Origin: an uncultured Mucispirillum sp.
Lineage (GTDB): Bacteria > Chrysiogenota > Deferribacteres > Deferribacterales > Mucispirillaceae
DNA length: 64,000 nt
Assembly (NCBI GenBank): GCA_944324495.1
Contig: CALUWN010000001.1
Coordinates: 124,001 to 188,000, forward strand
Direction of reading: 5' to 3'
A model generated the notes under the pieces. It made no database searches. It saw only the letters and a list, made by a program, of their open reading frames with translations, and was not told the origin of the DNA. The position numbers and the translations under genes are program-made. This document shows, piece by piece, positions 27,474-57,070 of the stretch; within the stretch, counting starts at the first letter, position 1; every line of letters begins with the position of its first letter.

Positions 27474-27824
27474 ATGCTGGGCTGTGATATTATTGAGATA
27501 AGTAGAATTGCAAGTTCTATAAGTAAATTTGGTTATAGTTTTTTACATCACATTTTATCTGATAATGAAATAGCCCTTTATAATAATAAAGGTAAAAAAG
27601 CCGAATTTGTTTCTGGCAGGTTTGCAGCAAAAGAAGCAGTTTCAAAAGCACTGGGAACAGGTATTGGCAGAGGGTATGCCTTTACTGATATTGAAATACT
27701 GCCTGATGAACTTGGGAAACCATGGGTGTATTTAAAAGGGGAAAGGGCAGAAAATATTGAGGTATCAATATCCCATTCAAGAGATAATGCTATTGCAGTT
27801 TGCTTAATAAAAGAGGATTTATGA
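27474..27824 (+). CDS. acpS: Holo-[acyl-carrier-protein] synthase
   Basis: The 116-residue AcpS-type phosphopantetheinyl transferase activates acyl carrier protein using CoA. It shows LGCDIIEISRI with the Mg-binding Asp, the central GRFAAKEAVSKALGTGIG and the C-terminal VSISHSRDNAIAVC. It starts 3 bases after pdxJ and overlaps kdsB by ATGA, bridging the glmM-pdxJ group and the LPS group. Confidence 0.94.
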   Translation: MLGCDIIEISRIASSISKFGYSFLHHILSDNEIALYNNKGKKAEFVSGRFAAKEAVSKALGTGIGRGYAFTDIEILPDELGKPWVYLKGERAENIEVSISHSRDNAIAVCLIKEDL

Positions 27825-28552
27825 GTGCGGTAATTATTCCAGCAAGGTATGGTTCTACAAGATTTCCAGGTAAAGTTTTAGCAGATATAGACGGCAAGCC
27901 TATGATAGTCAGGGTTGCAGAACAGGCAGTGCAGACTAAATGTGATAAAGTTATTGTGGTAACTGATAATGAGCAGGTATATAAAGCCTGCGAAAATTTA
28001 GATAAAGTAACAGTTATGATGAGCCCTGAGAATTTATCTACAGGAACTGACAGGGTTGCATATGCTGCTAAAAACATTGATGATGATATTATTATTAATG
28101 TGCAGGGTGATGAGCCTTTTATTCCACCTGCATTAATTGATGAATTAATAGATGGTTTAAAAAACGATAATTCTTTAAAAATGATAACAGCCTGCGTCCC
28201 TTTTGCAGATATTAATAATTCAGAAAACCCGTCGGCTGTTAAAGTGATTTTAGATGAAAATGATTTTGCAGTATATTTTTCAAGGTATCCGATACCTTAT
28301 AACAGAGATAATATTGAAGATATTGTAAGATACCGCCATATTGGTATATATGGCTTTAGAAGGGATTATCTTTTTGAATTTGCATCTCAAGAAAGAACAT
28401 TTTTAGAAAAATGCGAAAACTTGGAGCAGTTAAGAGCAATAGAAAAAGGTGTAAAAATAAAAGTTATTAAAACAGATTATAACCCATTATCTGTTGATAC
28501 ATATGAAGATTTACAAAATATATTAAAAATTTTAGAAATGAGGAATAATTAG
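27821..28552 (+). CDS. kdsB: CMP-Kdo synthetase (3-deoxy-manno-octulosonate cytidylyltransferase)
   Basis: The 243-residue nucleotidyltransferase activates Kdo with CTP for lipid A core synthesis. It has the N-terminal IIPARYGSTRFPGKVLADI, VVTDNEQV, STGTDRVAYAAK and IINVQGDEPFI. ATG at 27821 overlaps the acpS stop (ATGA) and begins at the first beta-strand; an in-frame upstream start at 27800 would add a non-conserved segment. It is followed directly by pyrG, whose product supplies its CTP. Confidence 0.95.
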   Translation: MSAVIIPARYGSTRFPGKVLADIDGKPMIVRVAEQAVQTKCDKVIVVTDNEQVYKACENLDKVTVMMSPENLSTGTDRVAYAAKNIDDDIIINVQGDEPFIPPALIDELIDGLKNDNSLKMITACVPFADINNSENPSAVKVILDENDFAVYFSRYPIPYNRDNIEDIVRYRHIGIYGFRRDYLFEFASQERTFLEKCENLEQLRAIEKGVKIKVIKTDYNPLSVDTYEDLQNILKILEMRNN

Positions 28553-28553
28553 T

Positions 28554-30179
28554 ATGGCAAAGTACATATTTGTAACGGGTGGAGTTTTATCGTCATTAGG
28601 TAAGGGGATAACAGCAGCATCCCTTGGTGCATTAATGGAATCACGTGGTTACAAAGTAGCATTAAGGAAATTTGACCCTTATTTAAACTATGGCCCGGGA
28701 ACTATGAGCCCATTACAGCATGGTGAAATATTTGTAACAGCAGACGGCTGCGAAGGTGACTTAGATTTAGGGCATTATGAAAGGTTTACTACAACTAATA
28801 CAGATGAATTTTCTGATATTACTTCTGGTAAAATATATTACACTGTTATTGAAAGAGAACGCAGAGGTGAATATTTAGGAGCTACTGTTCAAGTTATTCC
28901 TCATATTACTGATGAGATAAAAAGGTGTATTACAGCAGGTGCAGAAGATTATGATATAGTGATTACTGAAATTGGTGGCACTGTAGGTGATATTGAAGGC
29001 CTGCCGTTTTTAGAAGCTATTAGGCAGATGAAGTTTGATAGTGATGAAGATGATGTATTATTTTTACACGTTACATTAGTACCATATATTAAAAGTGCAG
29101 GTGAGCTTAAAACTAAACCAACTCAGCACTCTGTAAGGCAGCTGCAGGAGATTGGCATAAGCCCTGATATTTTAGTATGCAGAAGTGAATACCCATTAAG
29201 CGAAGGTGTTAGAAATAAGCTTGCATTATTTTGTAATGTAGAAAAATCATCAGTTATTAACTGTATGGATGCAGCTACGATATACCAAGTACCACTTGTT
29301 TTAAATGAAGAAGGCCTTGACAGTGAAGTTATTAAAAAACTTCATTTAGAAGAAAGAGAGTACGATTTATCATTATGGCAGGATATTGTAAGAAGGATTA
29401 AACAACCAAAAGACACTGTAACTATTGCTGTTGTTGGTAAATATTTAGAAACTAAAGATGCTTATTTAAGTTTAACAGAAGCCCTTCTTCATGGTGCAGT
29501 TGCAAATTATTTAAAAGCAGAAATAAAATGGGTAGATGCTGAACTTTTAGAAAACAGAATGGCTAACGAATACCTTAATAATGTAGACGGTATTTTAATA
29601 CCTGCTGGCTTTGGTGAGCGTGGTATGGAAGGTAAAATCTCTGCTGTTAATTTTGCTAGAACGAAAGATATACCGTTTTTTGGTATTTCTATGGGTTTAC
29701 AGGCTGCTGTTATTGAATATGCACGCAGTGTATTAAAACTGGAAGATGCAAAAAGTGCAGAGATGTCTAAACCTGCAGGCAGTAATAATTTAGTTATAGA
29801 TTATAAACATGATGAGCATTATAATGAAGAAATGGGTGCATCTATGCGTCTTGGCTCTTATGTTACTACATTATTAGATGGCAGTTTAGTTAAAGAAATA
29901 TATAATACTGATACTGTAACAGAAAGGCACAGGCACAGGCTTGAAATAAATGACAGTTACAGGCAGATGCTTGAAAATTCAGGTATGGTAATATCTGGCA
30001 ATAATGATGAAAGTGGGTTTGCAGATGTTATAGAGCTTCATTCTCACAGGTGGTTTATAGCTACTCAGTTTTGCCCTGAGTTTCAATCTAAACCATTTAA
30101 TCCTCACCCATTATTTAATGCATTTATTCAAGCAGCTTATAAATTTAAGCAGGATAGAAACGGTAAAGAACAAGAATAA
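28554..30179 (+). CDS. pyrG: CTP synthase with inactivated glutaminase site
   Basis: The 541-residue protein aligns over its full length with PyrG: an N-terminal synthetase domain (VTGGVLSSLGKG, GDLDLGHYERF with the Mg-binding Asps, EIGGTVGDIEGLPFLEAIRQ) and a C-terminal class I glutamine amidotransferase domain. In that domain the nucleophile elbow, normally GICLGMQ, reads GISMGLQ, with Ser at 379 where E. coli has the catalytic Cys379. The catalytic His, normally QFHPEF, reads QFCPEF (Cys507); Glu509 is kept. The PGGFG oxyanion loop reads PAGFGERG. The synthetase site looks intact, so the enzyme may aminate UTP with free ammonia. It lies between kdsB (1-base gap) and kdsD. Confidence 0.93.
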   Translation: MAKYIFVTGGVLSSLGKGITAASLGALMESRGYKVALRKFDPYLNYGPGTMSPLQHGEIFVTADGCEGDLDLGHYERFTTTNTDEFSDITSGKIYYTVIERERRGEYLGATVQVIPHITDEIKRCITAGAEDYDIVITEIGGTVGDIEGLPFLEAIRQMKFDSDEDDVLFLHVTLVPYIKSAGELKTKPTQHSVRQLQEIGISPDILVCRSEYPLSEGVRNKLALFCNVEKSSVINCMDAATIYQVPLVLNEEGLDSEVIKKLHLEEREYDLSLWQDIVRRIKQPKDTVTIAVVGKYLETKDAYLSLTEALLHGAVANYLKAEIKWVDAELLENRMANEYLNNVDGILIPAGFGERGMEGKISAVNFARTKDIPFFGISMGLQAAVIEYARSVLKLEDAKSAEMSKPAGSNNLVIDYKHDEHYNEEMGASMRLGSYVTTLLDGSLVKEIYNTDTVTERHRHRLEINDSYRQMLENSGMVISGNNDESGFADVIELHSHRWFIATQFCPEFQSKPFNPHPLFNAFIQAAYKFKQDRNGKEQE

Positions 30180-30181
30180 TT

Positions 30182-31165
30182 ATGGAAAATAATATGGATA
30201 AAGAACTTATAATTAAAAATGGCAGGCAGACTTTTGAAATAGAAATAGAGGCTATGAAAAGAGCTATGAACAGCCTTGATGACAGCTTTGCAAAAGCAGT
30301 TGAAATAATTCTTGGCTGTAAAGGCAGAGTTGTAGTTATTGGTATGGGTAAGTCTGGTTTAATAGGTAAAAAGATAGCAGCAACCCTTGCAAGTACAGGA
30401 ACACCTGCATTTTTTATGCACCCAGCAGAAGGTATGCATGGTGATTTAGGTATGCTTGTTAAAGGTGATGTGGTTATTGGCATTTCAAACAGTGGTGAAA
30501 CTGAAGAAATGAAAGTATTACTGCCATTAATTAAAAGATTAGGTTCTAAATTAATTGCAATAGTTGGGAAAAAGGATTCTACTTTAGGCAGAGAATCAGA
30601 CTGCATATTAGATGCTTCAATAGAAAAAGAAGCCTGCCCTTTAAATTTAGCGCCTACTGCAAGTACCACAGTTGCTTTAGCATTAGGGGATGCTTTAGCA
30701 GTTGCTTTAGTAGAATGCAGGGGCTTTAAGGCAGAAGATTTTGCAATGTTTCACCCATCTGGTTCTTTAGGTAAAAGACTGCTTACTACTGTAGATGATT
30801 TAATGCATAAAGGTAATGAAGTACCAAAAGTATATGAAAGTGATACAGTAGAAAAAGCTGTGCAGGAAATAAATGAAAAAAGATTTGGCTGTACTGCTGT
30901 AATGAATGATAAAAATGAGCTTACAGGTATTATCACAGACGGTGATTTAAGGCGTGCCTTAACAAAATATAATACGGTACAAAATTTAAAAGTATCAGAT
31001 ATTATGACTCATAACCCTAAAATGATTAAAAAGCATGAGTTGGCAGCAAAAGCTTTGCATATTATGGAAGAATATAAAATATCTTCACTCTTTATAATAG
31101 ATAATAATAAAACTCCAGAAGGTATATTACACTTTCAGGATTTATTAAAGTACGGTTTAGTATAG
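30182..31165 (+). CDS. kdsD: D-arabinose-5-phosphate isomerase (KdsD/KpsF)
   Basis: The 327-residue protein has an N-terminal SIS sugar-isomerase domain (VVVIGMGKSGLIGKKIAATLASTG, GISNSGETEEM, and the HPSGSLGKRL segment) and two C-terminal CBS domains (about 200-320). This is the standard KdsD/KpsF layout. It converts ribulose-5-phosphate to arabinose-5-phosphate for Kdo synthesis. The start follows pyrG by 2 bases; a second in-frame ATG 12 bases later is also possible. The next Kdo enzymes, KdsA and KdsC, are not in this cluster. Confidence 0.94.
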   Translation: MENNMDKELIIKNGRQTFEIEIEAMKRAMNSLDDSFAKAVEIILGCKGRVVVIGMGKSGLIGKKIAATLASTGTPAFFMHPAEGMHGDLGMLVKGDVVIGISNSGETEEMKVLLPLIKRLGSKLIAIVGKKDSTLGRESDCILDASIEKEACPLNLAPTASTTVALALGDALAVALVECRGFKAEDFAMFHPSGSLGKRLLTTVDDLMHKGNEVPKVYESDTVEKAVQEINEKRFGCTAVMNDKNELTGIITDGDLRRALTKYNTVQNLKVSDIMTHNPKMIKKHELAAKALHIMEEYKISSLFIIDNNKTPEGILHFQDLLKYGLV

Positions 31166-52701: not shown

Positions 52702-53805
52702 ATGGAATACAGCTGGAAAGAAAAACGCAAAAAATCTGCTTTTCTTGCTCTTGAAAATGGAGAAATATTTAAAGGATATTCTTTCGGAGCAAAAGTGGAT
52801 AAGCTTGGAGAAACTGTTTTTAATACAGGTATGAGCGGCTATGAAGGAATTATTAGTGACCCATCATATGCAGGGCAGTTCGTATCATTAACTGCACCAG
52901 AAATAGGTAACTATGGTGTTGATTTAAATTATTTAGAATCTCGCAGTCTTTTCTTAAATGGTTTAATTGTTTGTAATATAAATGAACCATCTAACTTTTC
53001 TTCTCAAATTAGCTTACAAGAAATGCTTAAAAAACACAATATTCCAGCTATTGCAGGTATTGATGTAAGGCGTCTTACATTAATGATTAGAGAGCAGGGC
53101 TCATTAAAAGGTTATCTTCACTGCTCAGATGAAAATATTTCTTATGATGAAGCAGTAGAAAAAGCAAGAGCATGGGAAGGGCTTGATAACCAAGACTATG
53201 CTAAAAAAGTTACAGCTGGGGAAGTTTTTAAATGGAACGAAACTGGTACATATAAAATAGCAGCTTATGATTTTGGTATTAAATATAATATATTAAGGAG
53301 CTTAGCAGCTCATGATATGCAGGTAACAGTAGTACCTGCTGGGTATGACCCTAAAAAAGTAATGGAAATGAATGTTGATGGCGTGTTTTTATCAAATGGC
53401 CCAGCAGACCCATCTTCACTTACTTATGCAATAGAAGCAGCAAAATATTTTACAGGTAAAAAACCTTTAATGGGTATATGTTTGGGGCATCAGATTATGG
53501 GAATATCTGCAGGCTGCTCTTGTTACAGGCTTAAATTTGGCCATCATGGTTTAAATCATCCTGTAAAAAACCTGCTTAATAATCAAGTGGAAATCACTTC
53601 TCAAAACCATAACTTTGCTTTATCTATGGATAATATACCATCTTGCTTAGAAGTAACACATATTAATATGAATGATAATACAGTAGAAGGTATCAGGCAT
53701 AAAACAGAACCATTTTTTAGTGTGCAGTATCACCCAGAAGCAGCACCGGGACCAAATGATTCTCTTTATCTTTTTGAAATTTTTAGAAAAATGATGGAGC
53801 GTTAA
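52702..53805 (+). CDS. carA: Carbamoyl-phosphate synthase small subunit
   Basis: The 367-residue glutaminase subunit supplies ammonia to CarB for pyrimidine and arginine synthesis. The N-terminal domain shows [15 protein letters not shown] and [20 protein letters not shown]. The class I amidotransferase domain has the intact nucleophile MGICLGHQ (Cys260), QNHNFALS, and YHPEAAPGP with His344 and Glu346. This intact triad contrasts with the altered one in PyrG of the same window. It has its own promoter and is followed after 1 base by carB. Confidence 0.96.
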
Positions 53806-53806
53806 A

Positions 53807-56800
53807 ATGCCAAAACGTAATGATATAAAAAAAATTATGATAATCGGTGCTGGCCCTATTGTAATAGGTCAGGGCTGCGAGTTTGACTATTCTGGTGTGC
53901 AGGCTTGTAAAGCACTTAAAAATGAAGGGTTTGAAATAGTTCTTGTAAACTCAAACCCAGCTACAATTATGACAGACCCAGAGTTTGCAGATAGAACATA
54001 TATTGAACCATTATCTGTAGATATATTACAGGAAATAATCAGGCGTGAAAGACCAGATGCTGTGCTTCCAACTTTAGGCGGGCAGACTGCGTTAAATTTA
54101 GCTGTAGAGCTTTATGATAAAGGTATTTTAAAACGCTATGGTGTTGAGATGATTGGTGCTTCTGTTAAAAGTATTAATAAAGCAGAGGACAGGCAGTTAT
54201 TTAAAAAGACTATGAAAGAAATAGGGCTTGACTTGCCGCGTTCTGGCTCTGCTCACACTATGCAGGAAGCAGTAGCAGTTGCAGAAGCAATAGGTACTTG
54301 GCCATTAATTATTCGCCCGGGCTTTACTTTAGGTGGTACTGGTGGCGGTATTGCTCATAATAAAGAAGAATTTCATCAAATAGTATCCCGCGGGCTTTTT
54401 GAAAGTAGAAACAGCGAAGTTTTAATTGAAGAATCTCTTTTAGGCTGGAAAGAGTTTGAAATGGAAGTAATGCGTGATAGGAAAAATAATGCAGTTATAG
54501 TATGTTCCATTGAAAACTTTGATCCAATGGGTGTGCATACTGGTGATTCTATTACTGTTGCACCAATACAGACTTTAACAGATAGAGAATATCAGGCTAT
54601 GCGTGATGATAGTTTAAGGGTAATGGAAGCAATTGGGGTAGAAACTGGTGGTGCTAATGTGCAGTGGGCAGTAAACCCAGTAGATGGCAGAAGAATAATT
54701 ATTGAGATGAACCCTCGTGTTTCTCGTTCTTCAGCTCTTGCTTCAAAAGCAACAGGCTTTCCTATAGCTAAGATTGCGGCTCTTTTAGCAGTTGGTTATA
54801 CTTTAGATGAATTAATAAATGATATTACAGGTGAAACACCTGCCTGCTTTGAACCAGCACTTGACTATATTGTTACAAAAATACCTCGCTTCACTTTTGA
54901 AAAATTTCAAAAGGCAGATTCAACATTAGGTACGCAGATGAAATCAGTAGGGGAAGCTATGGCAATAGGTAAGACTTTTAAACAGTCTTTCCAAAAAGCG
55001 CTCCGTTCTCTTGAAATTGGCAGAAGTGGTTTTGGTGCTGATGGTAAAGATGAAGCATATGAAAATATGACAGAGGAAGAATTAAATATTGCCATTCAAG
55101 TTCCAAAGGCAGATAGAGTATTTGCTGTTCGTGCAGCATTTAAAAGAGGTTATTCTGTAGATGATGTTTATAACCATTCTAAAATAGATAAATATTTTCT
55201 ACGCCATTTAGCTGAAATTACAGCATTTGAAGATGAAATAAAATCATATAAAACTTTAAAAGAATTATCTCATGATAAAGAAGTATTTATTCAAGCAAAA
55301 GAGTTTGGTTTTTCTGATAAACAGATTGCATTTTTATTAAATGCAACAGAGAAAGAAGTAAGAGATTGCAGAAAAGAAAACGGCATTACGCCAAGTTATG
55401 CTGCTGTTGATACTTGTGCTGGTGAATTTTATGCAAAAACACCTTACTATTATTCATCATACAGCGAATATTCTGAGCCAGCAAGAATTGATAATAATAA
55501 AAAATCAATTATGGTATTAGGTGGTGGTCCTAATAGAATTGGTCAGGGAATAGAATTTGATTACTGCTGTGTGCATGCATCATTTGCATTAAAAGCAGCA
55601 GGCTATGAATGTATTATGGTAAACTCAAACCCAGAAACAGTATCAACAGATTATGATATTAGCGATAAACTGTATTTTGAGCCGTTAACTATTGAAGATG
55701 TACTGCATATTTATGAAAGAGAGCAGTGTGTAGGTGCAATAGTGCAGTTTGGTGGCCAAACTCCATTAAACCTTGCAAGACAGTTAGAGCAAAATGGCGT
55801 TAAAATTATAGGCACAGCACCTGATAGCATTGAGTTTGCAGAAGACAGGGATAGATTCCAAAAACTTATTAATAAGTTAAACATTAAACAGCCAGAAAGC
55901 GGTATTGCTTATAAAGAAAAAGAAGCTTTAAATATAGCAGAACGCATTGGCTACCCTGTACTTGTACGCCCATCATTTGTACTTGGTGGCAGGGGTATGG
56001 TAATAGCTTATACTAGAGAAACCCTTGAAAAATATATAAAATATGCAGTTCAGTTATCAGATGATAACCCAATCTTAATTGATAAATTTTTAAACGATAC
56101 AACTGAAGTAGATGTGGATTGTATATCTGATGGTAAAACTACAGTTATAGGTGGTATTATGGAACACGTTGAGCCTGCTGGCATTCACTCTGGTGATTCT
56201 GCTGCTGTTATACCAACTATGACTTTAAGCAAAGAAGTTCTTGATACCATAAGAGCCCATACGTTTGCTTTAGCAAAAGAATTAAATGTGTGTGGTCTTA
56301 TGAATATTCAATATGCAGTTCATAATAATGAAGTCTATATTATTGAAGCAAACCCTAGGGCATCAAGAACTGCTCCATTTGTAAGCAAATCTATTGGTGC
56401 ACCACTTGTTAAATATGCTGTTAGATGTATGCTTGGTGAAACATTAAGTGAGATAGGATATACTGAAGAAATTATTCCACCATATACAACTGTAAAAGAG
56501 GCAGTTTTCCCATTTTCTAAATTTATTGGTGCAGATATAATATTAAGCCCAGAAATGCATTCAACAGGCGAAGTTATGGGTATGGATGCTAGTAAAGGCT
56601 TAGCATACTTAAAATCACAAATTGCTTCAGGTGGCAAGCTTCCTGAAAACGGCAATATATTTGTATCTTTAAATAATAAGGATAAAGAAAGAGCAGTGCC
56701 ATATTTAAAAGATTTAGCAGAGCTTGGGTTTAATATTTATGCAACAGAAGGTACTTCTACAATGCTTTATGACCATAATATTAAATCTAATGCAGTATTT

Positions 56801-57070
56801 AAAATATCAAAAGGCCGCCCAAATCTAGTTGATTTATTAAATGAAGATAAAATTCAATGGATTATTATGACAAGAGAAGAGGGTGAAGATGCTGTTATTG
56901 ATGAAATAAAAACTCGTTCAATAGCACTTTTAAAAGGAGTACCTATGACTTCCACATTCTCAGGCATTGTTGCAGCAGTTGACGGCTTAAAAGAAAAAGC
57001 TGATTTTGGCAGATTTGAAGTATATTCTCTGCAGGAATACCATAGAAAAATAAAACTTAAAAATAATTAA
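53807..57070 (+). CDS. carB: Carbamoyl-phosphate synthase large subunit
   Basis: The 1087-residue enzyme has the expected duplicated architecture. The first ATP-grasp half begins [21 protein letters not shown] and includes [16 protein letters not shown]. The second begins [19 protein letters not shown] and includes [15 protein letters not shown]. The C-terminal allosteric MGS-like domain (from about 940) contains [18 protein letters not shown]. It uses ammonia from CarA, bicarbonate and two ATP. Length is normal and no interruption is seen. It is followed at once by a terminator. Confidence 0.97.

Follow-up and report, generated by a model that had tools for sequence, protein, structure and literature searches.

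Synthetase or isomerase parts that occur without a glutaminase are known from other lineages, in the form of archaeal GuaA subunit B and GlmD/NagB-II. Human CPS1, an enzyme of the urea cycle, uses ammonia only and carries Ser in place of the same kind of Cys (PMC4655335). In the CTP synthase PyrG of Escherichia coli, the substitution G352P abolishes CTP formation from glutamine and leaves almost full activity with NH4Cl, and the substitutions D107A and L109A break the coupling of glutamine hydrolysis to CTP formation with the use of ammonia intact (PMC9138612). In this enzyme the L2 loop, which contacts GTP and forms part of the wall of the ammonia tunnel, follows Asp48; Thr69 is next to Glu68, a residue of the GTP site; and the basic residues of L13 are important for GTP activation (PMC9138612, PMC8325340). 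In vivo, E. coli CarB forms carbamoyl phosphate from NH3 by itself (Rubino 1987, as cited in PMC3017870), and the part of that report drawn on here proposes the use of CarAB with ammonia in Blochmannia vafer (PMC3017870). Mucispirillum schaedleri reduces nitrate to ammonium (PMC5285517). An earlier description of a glutaminase-dead PyrG was not found in the limited literature searched.

The pyrG gene described here, pyrG-A, lies in a stretch of 64,000 nucleotides from an uncultured Mucispirillum sp., the whole of which is called the window. Its product shares with E. coli PyrG and the TIGR00337 family the two-domain build and identical synthetase-site residues, and differs from them in that Cys379 and His515 are replaced and Asp48 and Thr69 are changed. 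With CPS1 it has in common a retained class I GATase domain with a nucleophile changed from Cys to Ser, ammonia as the probable donor, and the presence in the same organism of a counterpart that uses glutamine. However, CPS1 is another enzyme in another pathway, whereas PyrG-A is bacterial and biosynthetic, and the counterpart of CPS1 is a diverged duplicate, whereas that of PyrG-A, PyrG-B, looks foreign. Like archaeal GuaA subunit B and GlmD/NagB-II, the GuaA and GlmS proteins of a related family (f4) are glutaminase-less, but in f4 several losses coincide within one bacterial lineage. Blochmannia vafer is also host-associated, with a glutamine and ammonia economy altered by the loss of glutamine synthetase, but the part of the report drawn on here describes no loss of an amidotransferase catalytic site (PMC3017870).

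Results

The coordinates of pyrG-A, of its domains and altered codons, and of the other genes considered are given in Table 1.

Table 1. Features of the window discussed in the text
Feature	Position	Strand	Remarks
pyrG-A	28554..30179	+	Native CTP synthase, 541 aa; glutaminase site predicted to be dead
Synthetase domain of PyrG-A	28560..29348	+	Residues 3-265; Pfam PF06418 (CTP_synth_N), 408 bits
GATase-like domain of PyrG-A	29454..30131	+	Residues 301-526; Pfam PF00117, 114 bits
Gly47	28692..28694	+	E. coli Asp48; Asp in 110/110 intact PyrGs and 0/16 clade members
Gly68	28755..28757	+	E. coli Thr69; Gly in 16/16 clade members
Ala351	29604..29606	+	GCT; oxyanion region, PAGFG for PGGFG
Ser379	29688..29690	+	TCT; replaces the glutaminase nucleophile Cys
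Cys507	30072..30074	+	TGC; replaces the triad His (E. coli His515)
kdsB	27821..28552	+	Conserved neighbour, ending 1 bp before pyrG-A; internal ATG chosen as start
kdsD	30182..31165	+	Conserved neighbour, 2 bp after pyrG-A
carA	52702..53805	+	Intact glutaminase subunit; glutamine-dependent set
carB	53807..57070	+	Partner of carA

The glutaminase site of PyrG-A

Both Pfam and NCBIfam confirmed the architecture of a synthetase followed by a class I GATase, and the match to TIGR00337 (750 bits, cut-off 463) covers the whole two-domain protein. The NCBIfam name that comes with this match, 'glutamine hydrolyzing CTP synthase', would be wrong for PyrG-A, to judge from its catalytic residues. A preliminary description of the locus had recognized a full-length PyrG with Cys379 replaced by Ser and His507 by Cys, and this is confirmed by Pfam, by the codons, and by the absence of the Cys in 14/14 members of the Mucispirillum family (f1). 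The third triad residue, Glu509, is retained, as are Glu403 and the Gln-binding Arg.

Cys379 is invariant in 110/110 intact reference PyrGs, and so is His515 (E. coli number), which places the substitutions of PyrG-A far outside chance or error. Conservation of the loss among relatives, which the preliminary description had proposed to check, is complete for the nucleophile: position 379 is Ser or Gly in 16/16 members of the PyrG-A clade. The 77 PyrG matches outside the clade, among the matches listed in a contig scan, carry the normal Cys. All nine A copies of the genus Mucispirillum (9/9) have Ser (TCT/TCA) and Cys (TGC/TGT) at positions 379 and 507, respectively. In the other five A copies of the family Cys379 is changed to Ser or Gly, the latter in genus g2, and the triad His is kept (G011 and g2); in f4 the His is Leu, and the Ser is accompanied by an inserted residue at the nucleophile turn. 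Sequencing error was rejected as a source of the substitutions, the same residues being found in nine species, including a single-contig genome. The glutaminase function of PyrG-A should be gone, and its loss, as first described, is supported by these replacements.

Of the 137 alignment columns kept in at least 98% of the 110 intact PyrGs, only Cys379 and Asp48 are gone in 16/16 clade members. PyrG-A of the window departs from this set at two columns of the synthetase domain (Asp48 and Val60) and at six in the GATase half. The residue inventory of the preliminary description holds for Ser379, Cys507 and Ala351, but had overlooked the changes of Asp48 and Thr69 to Gly and a second pyrG elsewhere in the genome; the oxyanion change is indeed present in PyrG-A, but is restricted to the genus and one f4 genome. 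An AlphaFold model of PyrG-A (eight sequences) was poor, with a mean pLDDT of 62.5, and was excluded from the argument.

Synthetase, GTP and tunnel residues

All of the checked ATP, UTP and Mg residues (S14, K18, K40, D42, H57, D72, E140, K187, K189, Q192 and K223) are unchanged in 16/16 clade members, in agreement with the earlier claim that the synthetase site is kept, and the CTP-feedback residues of PyrG-A are also unchanged. The Thr69 column is slightly less conserved elsewhere than those of Asp48 and Cys379. At the tunnel gate, the genus has Ile in place of V60. The GTP-site residues E68, R356, R468 and R470 are largely retained, and the basic residues of L13 are replaced by acidic or neutral ones.

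Gene neighbourhood

The preliminary description had linked PyrG-A to Kdo activation through the adjacent kdsB. This link was not sustained: the order kdsB-pyrG-kdsD spans the whole taxonomic order and is also found around intact PyrGs, so that it reflects old synteny only. In relatives from the order (L187, L188) an extra gene of about 260 aa, possibly kdsA, lies between pyrG and kdsD; it is absent from this place in the family (window 30179-30182) and in the f4 genomes G017 and G031. A search around pyrG-A for promoter and terminator signals gave none above shuffles.

Selection and phylogeny

PyrG-A is under strong purifying selection. Within the genus, its median dN/dS is 0.060 (0.037 for the synthetase and 0.070 for the GATase domain), about the same as the 0.064 of PyrG-B (0.039 and 0.081, respectively). 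The pyrG-A frame is open in all genomes, with no frameshifts, and dS is near 1 across the nine species.

In a tree of 66 proteins, the A copies and the single PyrGs of G017 and G031, which represent two genera of the sister family f4, formed one clade (support 99/98) placed inside the Deferribacterales, and none of its 16 members has the catalytic Cys. PyrG-A is the native copy in Mucispirillum. The KdsD tree united all five f4 genomes (98/97); the remaining three lack an A copy; their PyrG is of another, intact kind and falls with the only alphaproteobacterial sequence included in the tree. The PyrG-B copies formed a separate clade, whose placement inside the order was weakly rejected (p = 0.029, with long branches). 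A recent duplication into A and B was discarded, as PyrG-B in the position of sister to the f1 A copies was rejected (AU p = 0.0005).

The second copy, PyrG-B, and its gene block

The source genome (2.43 Mb, 98% complete) contains a second pyrG at C25:20904-22466. PyrG-B has 524 residues, is 49% identical to PyrG-A and keeps the motifs GICLGMQ and QFHPEF intact. It is present in 13/14 family genomes having an A copy, the exception being the draft G004, and the single-contig genome G007 has exactly two pyrG genes. The proposal that CTP, and with it Kdo activation, is tied to ammonia in Mucispirillum is contradicted by this intact pyrG-B.

The gene is flanked by guaA, divergent in most members, and by glmS, 16 bp downstream, all of them intact. 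This cluster of three intact glutamine amidotransferases (L033:11144-16336) is conserved across the family. Family GuaA is 49-57% identical to that of other order members, which are 55-71% identical to each other (88% in one congeneric pair); for GlmS the figures are 37-48% and 40-60%. Given these low values, the block of guaA, pyrG-B and glmS looks foreign, as judged for GuaA and GlmS from identities within the order only. In PyrG-B the coupling residues of the L4 loop are replaced in 13/13 copies (R104I/M, D107Q/Y/H and L109N/K) and the triad is intact (e.g., L002:1495-3069).

CarA, CarB2 and other amidotransferases

CarA of the window keeps an intact glutaminase site, as had been stated. 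The further claim of a loss confined to PyrG holds in part only: Mucispirillum has its CarA intact, but a CarB without CarA (CarB2) accompanies PyrG-A across the clade, and GuaA, GlmS and PurF have losses in f4. CarB2, with no second CarA, was located at G000:C6:122385-125615 (L299:8392-11619, - strand). It occurs in the f1 genomes checked and in G017 and G031 of f4, and was absent from six other order members searched. CarB2 proteins are roughly 61-80% identical within the clade (95% in one congeneric pair) and 47-58% identical to the other CarBs of the order. CarB2 is without a CarA in most members of the clade: a genome search found none in G010, G012, G013, G014, G017 and G031. A CarAB pair is present in addition in G000 and G011, and the CarB of this pair clusters with those of G024 and G035. 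In G037 (L307, L304), CarA lies beside pyrB/pyrC-like genes and a divergent CarB is on another contig.

In G017 (95% complete) and G031 (87%), a PyrG of the A type is the only one found; since these f4 genomes are drafts, the lack of an intact pyrG is not fully certain. GuaA of G017 has no GATase domain, for which the guaB directly upstream leaves no room, and in G031 about 60 residues of this domain remain in GuaA. In G017, GlmS is reduced to its SIS isomerase part, its gene following directly on glmU; in G031 it has full length and altered glutaminase motifs (HTRWATHG to HIRWQAHT, HNG to HDG). In both genomes PurF is missing its N-terminal Cys along with other motifs, and PurQ and HisH of G031 look intact. 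The altered GuaA, GlmS and PurF loci are on contigs C89, C98 and C106 of G017 and C30, C1 and C149 of G031 (L255, L256, L257, L259, L260 and L261). Glutamine synthetase has a long, type 3-like frame in the family and part of f4, namely in G000 (C9), G011 (C34 and C25), G012 (C21), G017 (C5), G024 (C42) and G035 (C145), and is of type I length in G031, G037 and other order members.

Discussion

We consider it probable that PyrG-A is a working CTP synthase no longer able to hydrolyse glutamine, as the result of a single ancestral shift to ammonia in f1 and f4. The enzyme would make CTP from UTP, ATP and free ammonia, and its GATase domain would be retained as a structural, perhaps GTP-sensing, part. 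PyrG-A would have arisen once, in the ancestor of the Mucispirillum family and f4, during a shift that may have moved both the carbamoyl phosphate step (CarB without CarA) and the CTP step to ammonia. Two f4 genera would have gone further, including GuaA, GlmS and PurF. The Mucispirillum family would later have gained the foreign-looking intact block, and carAB may also have been gained, in Mucispirillum and one other genus; the family would now run ammonia and glutamine versions in parallel. The activity, the donor and the order of these gains and losses are read here from sequences and trees, and ammonia-dependent CTP formation, already suggested in the preliminary description, is well supported and kept as the best reading, as one element of a wider pattern that lies beyond the window.

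Some observations count against it. The GTP-site residues are largely retained, although an enzyme using ammonia alone could do without them, and a cell that has an intact PyrG-B has no obvious need of PyrG-A. Moreover, the loss of Asp48 beside the GTP site and tunnel, or the change of V60 to Ile, could impair the synthetase. A further option is that PyrG-B, with its changed coupling residues, leaks glutamine-derived ammonia for use by PyrG-A. On the broader proposal, that nitrogen for nucleotides and amino sugars came to be drawn throughout the lineage from free ammonia in place of glutamine, first through CarB without CarA and PyrG-A and then through GuaA, GlmS and PurF without glutaminase, and that part of the lineage regained the glutamine-dependent block, giving Mucispirillum its present paired pathways for the two nitrogen steps in pyrimidine synthesis, our opinion is evenly balanced.

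PyrG-A might instead be a silent regulatory partner of PyrG-B in mixed tetramers, for example lending its L4 loop to the adjacent PyrG-B subunit or damping the activity of PyrG-B. CTP synthase does work as tetramers in which L4 reaches the GTP site of the next subunit (PMC9138612), and this loop is unusual in 13/13 PyrG-B copies and near-normal in Mucispirillum PyrG-A. Yet L4 is also changed in the A copy of genus g2 (L109E), strong selection preserves every substrate residue, and two f4 genomes have PyrG-A with no other pyrG found; such a role is therefore unlikely. PyrG-A as the sole PyrG found in two genomes also argues against the adoption of a new acceptor or nucleophile, that is, a new amidoligase reaction marked by the changes at Asp48 and Thr69. 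The fixation of two synthetase-domain changes in 16/16 clade members would suit this idea, which is nevertheless quite improbable, as no UTP, ATP or CTP-feedback residue has changed and ammonia chemistry is indicated by CarB2 and by the losses in the other amidotransferases.

Erosion of the active site appears to be ongoing, the His being gone in the genus and f4 and kept in the other two family genera, as would be expected of a decaying relic replaced by PyrG-B. We regard this as very improbable in view of a dN/dS of about 0.06 over nine species with dS near 1, the lack of frameshifts and the kept operon position; a pseudogene is ruled out by dN/dS. It is scarcely credible that glutaminase activity persists with Ser379 as a weak nucleophile: Glu509, Glu403 and the Gln-binding Arg would still be at hand, but the Gly of genus g2 cannot serve as a nucleophile, the His of Mucispirillum is also gone, and in f4 a residue is inserted at the nucleophile turn.

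If the ammonia reading of PyrG-A is true, a glutaminase-dead PyrG maintained by selection would stand to CTP synthases as CPS1 does to carbamoyl phosphate synthetases, and would offer a natural experiment on the role of the GATase domain and its GTP site after glutamine hydrolysis is lost. The requirements for abandoning ammonia channelling would become directly testable through PyrG-A. Together with CarB2 and the stripped GuaA, GlmS and PurF of f4, it would then portray a bacterium of an ammonia-producing niche in which free ammonia serves for the synthesis of nucleotides.
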